32,464 nt of DNA. Source: Eubacteriales bacterium. Lineage in GTDB: Bacteria; Bacillota; Clostridia; Lachnospirales; Lachnospiraceae. The notes beneath the pieces were generated by a model. The model saw only the letters and a list, made by a program, of their open reading frames with translations. It was not told the DNA's origin and searched no databases. The translations under genes and the position numbers were made by a program. This document shows positions 23,486 through 31,966 of the stretch, one piece after another; positions within the stretch are counted from its first letter, which is position 1, and each line of letters begins with the position of its first letter. The stretch spans positions 1 to 32,464 of the forward strand of contig JAUNDP010000023.1 of the NCBI GenBank assembly GCA_030526005.1, given 5' to 3'.

Positions 23486-23705
23486 ATTTCATATTGTTCC
23501 TAATTGAGGCATTCCTGCGAACGCCCAGCCGCAAAACTACGACCTTTCCGATACTACTTTTCTCGGTATTAAAAAGCAATATCCCAATGGGGTTTCCACT
23601 GTTTTATAAAATATCAGTACAAACAACACCGCCTGGTGGTTCATACTGCAGCCGCACAAAAAATTGTTCTGCGCATCTTAAAAAAAGCGCGCAAAGGGAC
23701 TTCAA

Positions 23706-26006: not shown

Positions 26007-26080
26007 ATGATTACCCCCGTTTCTGAAAGTACTTTTTTAAACAGGCAGACAAATTTGCCCCTGTATTGCTCTTCCTTTTC

Positions 26081-26109
26081 ATTCTATTACAGAATACGCG
26101 TATTATCAA
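26081..26109 (-). promoter_or_regulatory. Internal promoter of adk with a palindrome in the spacer
   Basis: On the minus strand TTGATA (26104-26109), a 17-nt spacer and TAGAAT (26081-26086) form a good sigma-A promoter 75 nt before adk. A perfect 12-bp palindrome, AATACGCGTATT (26093-26104), fills the -35-proximal part of the spacer. The rest of the secY-adk gap holds a possible weak terminator near 26130-26175 with a T-run, and nothing else recognised. Confidence 0.6.
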
Positions 26110-26275
26110 CGTTATTTTAAGCAGAAATGAAAAAATGAGCCCGCTGCCGTCTTTTACAGATGCCAGAAGGCCCCTTTCGATAAATTTGCCTATAATAGCA
26201 TTTTAGTGCACCCACACCCCTGTCACCTTCCGACTGTCTCCAGTCAGATGATGACAAACGTGATGAGCACACTGA

Positions 26276-29192: not shown

Positions 29193-29732
29193 TTATTTTT
29201 TACCAGTCTTACCAACTTTACGTCTAATAACTTCATCAGCATATTTGATACCTTTGCCTTTATAAGGTTCTGGAGCTCTTTTTTCTCTGATTTCAGCTGC
29301 GTATTGGCCTACTTTTTCTTTGTTGATACCTTTTACGATAATCTTGTTTCCTTCAACGGTAGTTTCGATTCCTTCTGGATCTTCCATTTCTACCGGATGA
29401 GAGTATCCAAGGGATAATGTCAGTTTCTTTCCAGCTTTTGCTGCTTTGTAACCAACACCGTTTACTTCCAGCACTTTCTGATATCCTTCACTTACACCTA
29501 CAACCATGTTGTGGATTAAAGTTCTGGTCAGTCCGTGTAAAGATTTCATTCTCTTTAAGTCGTTTGGTCTTGTAACAACTACCTGACCATCTCCTACTTT
29601 GATTTCCATTTCTGCTGATAATACTCTTTCCAGAGTACCTTTTGCACCTTTTACAGTGACTTTATTGTTCTCTGCGACTTCCACAGTAACGCCTGCTGGA
29701 ATCGCTACTGGCATTCTTCCGATACGTGACAT
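29193..29732 (-). CDS. rplF: 50S ribosomal protein L6
   Basis: L6 lies near the factor-binding site of the large subunit and helps position EF-G and EF-Tu. The 179 residues contain two repeated domains, with [14 protein letters not shown] at the start and the conserved [20 protein letters not shown] plus [18 protein letters not shown] at the end. It follows rpsH after 150 nt (29733-29882), which hold weak helices (AGATC/GATCT at 29764-29778) but no promoter, gene or terminator that I can support. Confidence 0.98.
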
Positions 29733-29882
29733 GCCTGTTTCCTCCTTACTTAGATTTTCGGAAAGATCTTTCTGATCTCTCTGTTTTCAGTAACTCAAAT
29801 TATCTGATATTGAAAAGGAGATTCCTCTCACAACAAAAGTCATGAGTGTTCTCGCCTTGTTCTTATTTATAAAGCGCAGGTA

Positions 29883-30284
29883 TTACCATACAAATGCTAA
29901 TACTTCTCCGCCTACCTGTAATCTTCTTGCTTCTTTGTCTGTGATTACACCCTGGTTTGTGGACAGGATTGCAATTCCTAAACCGCCAAGTACTTTTGGC
30001 AGATTGTCTTTTCCTGCATGAACACGCAGCCCTGGTTTGGAGATTCTCTTGATACCAGAGATAATTTTTTCATTCTTATCTGCACCATATTTTAATGTGA
30101 TGCGGATTGTTTTGAAGTTTCCTTCGTCAACGAGATCGTATTTTTTGATATATCCTTCATCTAACAAAATGTTTGCGATAGCAAGTTTCATCTTAGAAGA
30201 CGGAACATCAACTGTATCATGTTTAGCAGTATTTGCATTACGGATTCTTGTAAGCATATCTGCGATTGGATCGCTCATTGTCAT
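29883..30284 (-). CDS. rpsH: 30S ribosomal protein S8
   Basis: S8 binds the 16S rRNA central domain early in assembly and in E. coli represses the spc operon by binding its mRNA. The 133 residues include [27 protein letters not shown] and the end [22 protein letters not shown]. The first ATG, 9 nt after AAGGAGG (30294-30300), is chosen; a second ATG two codons later is possible. The gene is isolated by long gaps: 213 structured nt upstream and 150 nt downstream, unusual for this operon and suggestive of cis control. Confidence 0.97.
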
Positions 30285-30344
30285 TTAAAGTTGCCTCCTT
30301 TTACTAAATCTCTTTATCGGAATAACTGGTCTCCTGATGGACGA

Positions 30345-30482
30345 AAAGCAGACTGTCTGCTTTCTTCAACCATGAAGAATGGTTCCGTCCTCCCATATCT
30401 TACAACACATCCTGGTGTATTGCAATGGGTCAGAGACGGAACTTCCTATCTCACATTAACTTCAAGCTGCGCTCTCAGCTTG
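30345..30482 (-). ncRNA. Candidate structured RNA between rpsN and rpsH
   Basis: Four strong helices occupy this 213-nt gap, which has no gene. In transcription order: CAAGCTG/CAGCTTG (30463-30469 with 30476-30482); a nested element with outer 8-bp GTTCCGTC/GACGGAAC (30382-30389 with 30435-30442), inner CCCAT/ATGGG (30392-30396 with 30425-30429) and cap ACAC/GTGT (30405-30408 with 30415-30418); AACCAT/ATGGTT (30368-30373 with 30379-30384), which shares three bases with the outer helix and so competes with it; and AAAGCAGA/TCTGCTTT (30345-30352 with 30356-30363). The rpsH ribosome site follows at 30294-30300. Competing helices before a ribosomal gene suggest a cis-regulatory RNA; that function is inference. 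Confidence 0.55.
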
Positions 30483-30497
30483 CTTAATGATCAATGA

Positions 30498-30683
30498 TTA
30501 CCAGCTTGCTTTCTTTACTCCTGGGATCTGTCCTTTGTATGCTAATTCACGGAAGCAGATTCTGCAGATTCCGTATTTTCTTAAGTAAGCGTGTGGACGA
30601 CCACAGATTCTGCAGCGATTGTATTCTCTTGTGGAGAATTTCTGCGGACGCTGCTGTTTAATCTTCATTGCTGTCTTAGCCAT
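30498..30683 (-). CDS. rpsN: 30S ribosomal protein S14, type Z
   Basis: S14 completes the head of the 30S subunit. At 61 residues this is the short zinc form, with C24, C27, C40 and C43 in CRICGRP and CRICFREL. Many Firmicutes carry a second, zinc-free S14 elsewhere for zinc starvation; that cannot be checked here. It lies 17 nt after rplE with an AGGAGG site. After its stop the long structured gap to rpsH begins. Confidence 0.97.
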
Positions 30684-30700
30684 GAAATTTCCCTCCTATA

Positions 30701-31240
30701 CTATTTGGCGAATGGCATGTTGAACTGTTTTAATAATTCACGAGCTTCTTCGTCTGTCTTTGCAGTTGTAACGAAGATAACATCCATACCTCTGACTTTG
30801 TCTACTTTGTCATATTCAACTTCAGGGAAAATTAACTGTTCTTTGATACCAAGAGCATAGTTTCCTCTTCCATCAAATGCGTTTGGATTTACTCCTCTAA
30901 AGTCACGAACTCGTGGCAGTGCAAGGCTGATCAGACGATCAACGAACTCGTACATTTTTTCTCCACGCAGTGTTACTTTACATCCGATTGGCATACCTTC
31001 TCTGATTTTGAAGTTAGCGATGGAATTTTTTGCTCTTGTCAGGACTGCTTTCTGTCCTGTGATCAGTTCCATATCTTTGACAGCTGTCTCCAAAAGTTTT
31101 GCGTTTTCTTTTGCTTCTCCGACACCCATGTTGACAACTACTTTGTCAAGCTTCGGAACTTCCATAATATTTTTATATCCAAATTTTTTGACCATATTGT
31201 CTACGATCTCATTTTTGTATAACTCTTTCAGTCTACTCAA
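30701..31240 (-). CDS. rplE: 50S ribosomal protein L5, TTG start
   Basis: L5 binds 5S rRNA in the central protuberance and contacts P-site tRNA. The 179 residues are standard: [20 protein letters not shown] at the start, [30 protein letters not shown] and the end [16 protein letters not shown]. The start codon is TTG (31238-31240), 9 nt after GGAGG; no ATG or GTG is available at a suitable distance. A TTG start is unusual for such an abundant protein and could lower its initiation rate. Confidence 0.96.
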
Positions 31241-31264
31241 CTTGTGCGGCCTCCTCTCTTATAA

Positions 31265-31585
31265 TTAATCGATGACTTCGCGTTCAGCACCTTTAACTTT
31301 TGCTGTACGGACTTTTTTATCTCCAACTGTTGTGAAACCGATTCTTGCCGGTTTTCCGTTGTGAAGATACATAACATTAGAAGCGTTGATGTATGCTTCT
31401 TTTGTGATGATTCCGCCCTGCTGGTTTGTTGCTGATGGTTTTGTATGCTTTGTTACCATGTTAACACCTTCTACCAGAACAGTGTTATCTTTAGTATTTA
31501 CAGCAAGTACTTTACCTTCTTTATCTACATCTTTTCCAGCGATTACTTTTACTGTATCACCTTTTTTGATCTTTAAAGCTGACAT
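31265..31585 (-). CDS. rplX: 50S ribosomal protein L24
   Basis: L24 starts assembly of the large subunit by binding the 5' domain of 23S rRNA. The 106 residues open with a KOW motif ([20 protein letters not shown], 5-24) and include [18 protein letters not shown], typical of the bacterial protein, ending with the zinc-free tail [16 protein letters not shown]. It has a GGAGG site 8 nt before the ATG and lies 12 nt after rplN. Confidence 0.97.
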
Positions 31586-31597
31586 TTTGGTACCTCC

Positions 31598-31966
31598 TTA
31601 TAATACTTCAGGAGCCAGGGAAGCAATTTTCATAAACTGCTTGTCACGAAGCTCTCTGGCTACTGGTCCAAAAATACGGGTTCCTTTTGGAGTCTTATCA
31701 TCTTTGATGATGACAGCAGCATTTTCATCGAATTTAATATAAGAACCGTCTTTACGACGTGTGCCTCTTACTGTACGAACAACTACAGCTTTTACAACAT
31801 CACCTTTTTTAACAACACCGCCTGGTGTTGCATCTTTGACGCTGGCAATGATGATGTCACCAATGTTTGCATATCTTCTGGTAGATCCGCCCATAACTCT
31901 GATGCAGAGCAGTTCTTTCGCACCAGTATTGTCAGCGACTCTCAGTCTGGTTTCCTGTTGAATCAT
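31598..31966 (-). CDS. rplN: 50S ribosomal protein L14
   Basis: L14 sits at the subunit interface and forms bridges to 16S rRNA; it is also the docking site of silencing factor RsfS. The 122 residues run from [20 protein letters not shown] through [20 protein letters not shown] to [20 protein letters not shown], a full-length match to the family. It has a GGAGG site and lies 21 nt after rpsQ. Confidence 0.98.

Follow-up and report, generated by a model that had tools for sequence, protein, structure and literature searches.

The spc operon of many Clostridia may be regulated by L6 and not by S8, through an undescribed rplF leader that copies helix 97 of 23S rRNA with its loop split around a variable stem, while a folded rpsN-rpsH spacer would isolate rpsH from the preceding genes so that the S8 cistron could be tuned separately; we regard this scheme as a whole as evenly poised. 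Judged from its sequence, the element before rplF is probably an autoregulatory leader of L6. It is apparently a previously undescribed RNA element and is more widely conserved than the rpsN-rpsH fold, and its structure, covariation, position, single copy and resemblance to rRNA were established by computation. If the L6 assignment is true, it would give a testable answer on spc control for part of the Clostridia, and L6 would join the autoregulating ribosomal proteins. The features discussed below lie in the window, i.e. the whole stretch of 32,464 nucleotides that was analysed (contig JAUNDP010000023.1, Lachnospiraceae), and are as follows.

29193..29732, minus strand: rplF (L6), the presumed regulator and target
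29733..29882, minus strand: rpsH-rplF spacer, the second expanded spacer, 150 nt
29741..29796, minus strand: candidate L6 leader before rplF, (N)ACU-GAAAACA-(variable stem)-CCGANAAUYUA-AGU-AAGGAGG; model R1, 70.9 bits
29883..30284, minus strand: rpsH (S8)
30285..30497, minus strand: rpsN-rpsH spacer, 213 nt, which contains the structures reported originally
30294..30299, minus strand: Shine-Dalgarno sequence of rpsH, AGGAGG, with predicted pairing to the rpsN codons UGCUUCC
30307..30442, minus strand: genus-specific folded core, 136 nt, present once per genome in all three members of the genus
30316..30338, minus strand: possible P3 hairpin, AUC-A-GGA/UCC-GAU around CCAGUU, from pair counts
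30345..30363, minus strand: P2 hairpin, arms differing among the three species and stem partly kept, from pair counts
30382..30442, minus strand: P1 domain, closing helix of 8-9 bp with nested middle and apical stems, from pair counts
30451..30497, minus strand: first hairpin, a probable decayed class A dispersed palindromic repeat of Lachnospiraceae; model R3

The spacing of the spc genes was compared in 85 Lachnospiraceae loci, comprising the window, L009, L010, L013, L104 and the best 80 from an S8 search. Spacers of at least 60 nt occur between rpsN and rpsH in 36/85 loci and between rpsH and rplF in 62/85. The corresponding counts are 0/82 for rplN-rplX, 0/83 for rplX-rplE, 1/83 for rplE-rpsN, 0/83 for rplF-rplR and 0/80 for rplR-rpsE. 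The length of the rpsN-rpsH gap varies between 13 and 323 nt, with 49/85 loci below 60 nt. In the measured loci, the two spacers that flank rpsH are essentially the sole expanded, flexible points of an otherwise tight operon. We also note a gap of 269 nt between secY and adk (26007-26275) inside the operon of the window.

The element before rplF sits at the 3' end of the rpsH-rplF spacer and takes the form (N)ACUGAAAACA-(stem)-CCGANAAUYUAAG(U), followed by a Shine-Dalgarno sequence. In the window it is 56 nt long and ends 3 nt before the GGAGG of rplF; this copy was itself part of the R1 model, which has to be borne in mind for its 70.9-bit match. R1 identifies the element in 28/85 loci with E of 2.3e-7 or better, in 28/28 of them in the rpsH-rplF spacer, and only two other matches in the 85 loci fall below E 5 (E 3.1 and 4.7). 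Among the genomes of 116 relatives, 23 have one copy each, located directly before rplF in 22/23; the copy away from spc genes, L137, is the weakest of the 23 matches (E 0.0076). A wider search of 391 genomes of the class gave 10 matches, eight before rplF and two weak ones (L176 and L180) not near spc genes. Five of the eight rplF matches come from genomes of another bacterial family and have a different stem, ACUGAAAAC-CUGCC..GGCAG-AGAGAAUUUAAGU. Because any search that covered more than 40 genomes was run with stricter filters and with few scored candidates per genome (48 for R1 in the 116 genomes, 28 for R2 in the same genomes, and 14 class-wide), the negatives of these searches are soft, above all the class-wide ones.

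The remaining 57/85 loci are without the R1 element. The heptamer UACGGGC is found directly before the rplF start in 55 of these 57 (e.g. L020 and L099) and in 0/28 loci with R1, and L136 (G027) has both. The complementary GCCCGTA does not occur in the gaps that bear UACGGGC, and UACGGGC at the rplF start showed no covariation with codon 3.

The structure of the element was assessed by covariation in 27 of the 28 sequences (alignment A2), L096 being omitted because, by eye, its element is one letter away from that of L043. The alignment contains 54 double-change cells vs 17.3 in shuffles, a count reached in 0/500 of them, and versions of the structure slid along the alignment gave at most 19. 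The number of pairs with a double change, 8 vs 6.5, is not above shuffling (68/500). Further elements were aligned by letters (alignment A6); these are 14 of 21, the other seven being copies of A2 sequences. Here 96.1% of the cells are paired, with 35 double-change cells vs 10.0 in shuffles (0/500) and a number of pairs with a double change that 11/500 shuffles reach, figures that lean towards the model structure because the sequences were found with the model. The excess is to be read with the caveat that related sequences can exceed shuffles without structure.

The element was then compared with rRNA. A looser comparison, which was made first, was not significant (47/150 random sequences as good). 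The letters common to both families, CUGAAAAC and AUYUAAG set side by side, which were chosen after the match had been noticed, agree at 14/15 with E. coli 23S rRNA at position 2739 (CUGAAAGC-AUCUAAG), the best place in 23S, 16S and 5S rRNA. None of 400 random first-order Markov sequences of 4.4 kb, the size of 23S plus 16S, reaches 14/15. Position 2739 belongs to what we take to be helix 97. The likeness consists of a CUGAAARC-AUYUAAG loop closed by C-G and U-A pairs; the difference is that in the mRNA the two halves are separated by a variable stem of ~5-8 bp plus a few letters. In all 27 leaders the closing pairs are C-G and U-A, as they are in 23S rRNA, and the next pair covaries. The phrase UAA/GAN, presumably the name of such a loop motif, was not found among the literature matches listed. 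The N-terminus of L6 contacts helix 97, as stated in a passage of PMC4199504.

These features suggest a mechanism in which the conserved ACUGAAAAC ... AAUYUAAGU would act as a likeness of the helix 97 loop with a variable stem inserted. Free L6 would bind this mRNA copy of its own rRNA site, and the bound protein would block initiation at rplF and, by coupling, at rplR-rpsE and beyond; L6 binding and repression are what we infer from the features above. The distance from the end of the AAG to GGAGG is -1 to 6 nt in 28/28 loci, and a protein on the loop would therefore be expected to hinder initiation.

The element could instead be bound by another ligand, either S8 or a protein that recognises the 23S position-191 site, which we consider unlikely. 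It directly follows rpsH, and position 191 of 23S rRNA, the second-best rRNA place, has a similar loop (13/15; with a junction shift of one allowed, 10/400 random sequences reach 13). Against this, the cistron that follows encodes L6, whose own site gives the better rRNA match. In the S8 core, which we take to be an AAG(U) strand facing an A-N-(N)-ACU strand, the 642/598 pair would not covary as a standard pair. The equivalent pair of the element covaries as exactly such a pair (AU, GU, UG, CG); the S8 core is disfavoured in the rplF element because of this covariation, and S8 mimicry was rejected there. L6 remains the preferred ligand.

Rfam yielded no match to the element at E <= 2 in the four loci compared and none at E <= 5 on the minus strand between window positions 29600 and 30800. 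Among the literature matches listed, mostly non-subscription, the titles and abstract beginnings describe no rplF or L6 leader. The main text of a 2024 review mentions uL6 once, as an encoded gene, and rplF is absent from that text (PMC10931766). The window also contains a known element, the S4-Clostridia leader RF03140, at 23499-23548 on the minus strand (44.4 bits). The two share the character of a Clostridia ribosomal-protein leader, presumptive for the rplF element, and the same gene cluster; they differ in that the S4-Clostridia leader has an Rfam family, whereas the rplF element matches none.

The spacer on the other side of rpsH was the subject of the original prediction. The end of rpsN lies at 30498 and the start of rpsH at 30284, both on the minus strand, which bears out the predicted gap of 213 nt. 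All four structures named for it are present on that strand: a 7-bp hairpin (30476-30482/30463-30469), a nested stem closed by a perfect 8-bp helix (30435-30442/30382-30389), a 6-bp hairpin (30379-30384/30368-30373) that shares the three bases 30382-30384 with this helix, and an 8-bp hairpin (30356-30363/30345-30352). The dense folding claimed for the gap was likewise confirmed. Folded alone, the spacer 30285-30497 has a z of -3.3, with 0/200 shuffles as good, and the minus-strand fold of 30270-30510 reaches -71.5 kcal/mol (z -3.2, 1/200 shuffles as good). Its counterparts in the other two members of the genus score z -2.8 (2/200 shuffles) and z -3.8 (0/200). The plus strand of the gap region folds as well (z -3.7, 0/200 shuffles), so the fold alone cannot tell which strand matters.

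The helices had further been described as competing, and as a conserved feature this did not hold. The 6-bp alternative is complete in the window alone, both relatives keeping only its CAU/AUG (alignment, by eye), and the folding model assigns it a pairing probability of 0.02-0.03. The 8-bp P1 helix reaches a probability of only ~0.55-0.6 in the window once flanking sequence from rpsN and rpsH is included, compared with at least 0.9 in both relatives. A search of Rfam gave no family in the gap at gathering score, in agreement with the statement that no leader had been described at this position; up to E 5 across window positions 29600-30800 its two matches were weak and fell on the plus strand at 29750-29942, outside the gap.

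The gap is single-copy in its own genome, seven other matches there all having E of 1.6 or worse. Extended matches in 98 genomes were confined to G001 and G002 of the same genus, with identities to the window gap of 81% and 75% over gap positions 54/56-213, and six further genomes of the 98 gave matches of 24-37 nt. Short BLAST matches of the window or L010 gap elsewhere were taken for chance at the ten places whose surroundings were inspected (L012, L014, L015, L103, L105, L106, L107, L109, L110 and L113); 13/99 loci are without a nearby rpsN or rpsH. The genus comprises three genomes in the collection, and all three have the gap, at 213, 178 and 185 nt. A covariance model of the 136-nt core, R2, matches these genomes (G000, G001 and G002) at E 4.2e-34 or better, and in the other 113/116 its sole match up to E 0.1 is one at about 0.099, a soft negative as above. 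Conservation in relatives, by which the prediction could be judged, is thus divided: a folded gap is present in 3/3 genomes of the genus, but the core was not found in the 113 others. The folded stretch before rpsH is real and so far genus-specific.

Pair counts over the three sequences describe the core in more depth. Paired cells make up 88.6% vs 37-51% for slid versions. The P1 closing helix is paired in 27/27 cells with two G-U changes, the P1 middle helix in 13/15 with one double change and both failures in L009, and the P1 apical helix in 21/24 with three failures in L010. P2 is paired in 19/21 cells with one double change, 2/7 modelled pairs failing in the window. For P3, the count of 13/18 cells with one double change is too low in L009 because this sequence is shifted in P3 of alignment A1; if L009 is aligned by hand, P3 should be drawable in all three species. 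The covariation proposed as a check on the fold gave three double changes, which is not above shuffling (68/500 shuffles reach as much), three sequences being too small a sample. We also rejected the possibility that the conserved core is coding or encodes a leader peptide: inspected by eye, the frames tried run into stops in L009 or L010, and third positions are not where the changes fall.

The spacer's first hairpin differs from the core. In the alignment it is truncated in G002 and unrecognisable in G001. Similar hairpins, for instance CACTTAGCGAAAGCAAGCCGAAGGCGCAGCTTGAGGTTAGTGCGA, occupy this spacer in L013, L018/L019 and L061. A covariance model of 14 such hairpins, R3, from which the window copy was excluded, finds 30451-30497 at 24.9 bits, a weak match (E 6.9e-5 in 87 kb). 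R3 matches 11/41 genomes, with two or more copies in 9/41 (13 in G004 and 7 in G015); in the three genomes of the genus it gave no match at E <= 0.001, the window copy included. Because a multi-copy family built without the window matches it, we consider the first hairpin to be, in all probability, what is left of a dispersed palindromic repeat after decay, and the rpsN-rpsH spacer of the window is a composite of this probable decayed repeat and the genus-specific folded core. REP/BIME-like dispersed bacterial palindromic repeats are, we presume, the fitting comparison: the first hairpin likewise matches a palindromic element that is multi-copy in 9/41 genomes, the difference being that the rest of the window gap is single-copy and so far genus-specific.

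This invites the reading that the folded spacers around rpsH were left behind by mobile palindromes at a site that tolerates insertion, the genus core being one functionless remnant, a reading that falls somewhat short of probable. It accords with the occurrence of class A repeats in 11/41 genomes, with their presence in both rpsH-flanking spacers of some loci and with the probable origin of the window's first hairpin. Unrelated gaps also fold strongly: among spacers of at least 60 nt, z is below -2 (60 shuffles each) in 24/36 between rpsN and rpsH and in 31/62 between rpsH and rplF. Two observations speak against it. The core is single-copy, and its helices are mostly retained across changes in some arms, a weak argument from three sequences. 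Palindrome remains also cannot explain the second spacer, because the R1 element is single-copy, position-locked and covarying. In our main reading the core would most likely insulate rpsH translation or tune it locally, and any such effect of the fold is again something that we infer.

The original prediction had named S8 response and attenuation as plausible functions of the gap, and neither found support, because half of the S8 core and a coding-strand terminator are both absent. The A-N(1-2)-ACU half, in the letters assumed above for the core, does not occur in the window gap, for which S8 mimicry in the rpsN-rpsH gap was rejected; it occurs once each in the L009 and L010 gaps, at unrelated, non-equivalent places. 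On the coding strand of 29600-31600 no intrinsic terminator or terminator-like site was found, both terminator-like sites detected being on the plus strand, and attenuation was rejected on this ground.

In E. coli, S8 acts at the start of rplE, at a site very similar to the S8 site of 16S rRNA, as described in a section of the 2024 review (PMC10931766). The spc operator of E. coli and the folds described here are alike in being RNA folds inside the spc operon that are thought to serve feedback by a product. They differ in position, the E. coli operator being at the rplE start and the window folds flanking rpsH. They differ also in what they resemble: the E. coli operator resembles the 16S S8 site, whereas the rpsN-rpsH fold of the window is without the S8 core and the rplF element resembles the 23S L6 site. 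The E. coli-type position is not occupied by the fold, which precedes rpsH, and in 83 loci no rplX-rplE gap exceeds 26 nt.

In our estimate it is very improbable that the rpsN-rpsH fold is a new type of operator that responds to S8 without mimicry. The idea is attractive in that the S8 gene follows the fold immediately and that the fold is strong in 3/3 genomes of the genus, and the review describes spc regulation as unknown for B. subtilis or other species (PMC10931766). It is countered by the missing core half, with only single unrelated occurrences in L009 and L010, and by the confinement of the core to one genus although S8 is universal.

Translational coupling offers a further function for the fold. 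The 3' codons of rpsN would hold the Shine-Dalgarno sequence of rpsH and the CCAGUUAUUCC strand until the ribosome finishes rpsN. The folding model predicts pairing of the Shine-Dalgarno sequence with rpsN at 0.97, 0.98 and 0.85 in the three species. For CCAGUU, predicted pairing to the end of rpsN is 0.5-0.99, and the AUUCC part of the strand takes part in 2/3 species. Shuffled gaps, against this, hold the Shine-Dalgarno sequence as well in 9, 18 and 22 of 60 cases and equal its degree of pairing with rpsN in 35, 15 and 47 of 60. The Shine-Dalgarno partner TGCTTCC is the string of CFR codons in 66/85 loci, the GGAGGC flank shows no clear dependence on the codon (21/71 with TGC, 2/14 with TGT), and blocking the rpsN end in the folding model did not free the Shine-Dalgarno sequence. 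We consider such coupling doubtful. The same calculations concern P3, whose 3' half is predicted to pair instead with the end of rpsN: its probability is 0 in all three species with rpsN free, and with the rpsN end blocked it is 0.37-0.82 in the window, 0.01-0.54 in L009 and at most 0.01 in L010. Local insulation or tuning of rpsH remains the function that we favour for the core.

Several other features of the rpsH-flanking spacers were observed. The rpsH-rplF spacer of L098 (618 nt) carries several class A hairpins and shows the accumulation of repeats next to rpsH at its extreme. A long hairpin of a second type, with the motif CTAAGAA, is found in the rpsN-rpsH spacers of L044, L045, L076 and L079. 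It consists of an outer stem, TTCTAAGA...TCTAAGAA, and then a terminator-like hairpin, with arms that differ per locus, and it looks like another palindromic element. By eye, a similar hairpin of this kind is seen in the rpsN-rpsH spacers of L030, L039 and L047, and the CTAAGAA motif recurs in the rpsH-rplF spacers of L036, L038, L039, L076, L079 and L087. Finally, a motif CAUG(U/A)(A/C)AAGUCU starts 31-40 nt before rpsH in 12/85 loci (L013, L021, L034, L053, L057, L058, L061, L064, L081, L084, L090 and L091), all 12 of which have the rplF element.
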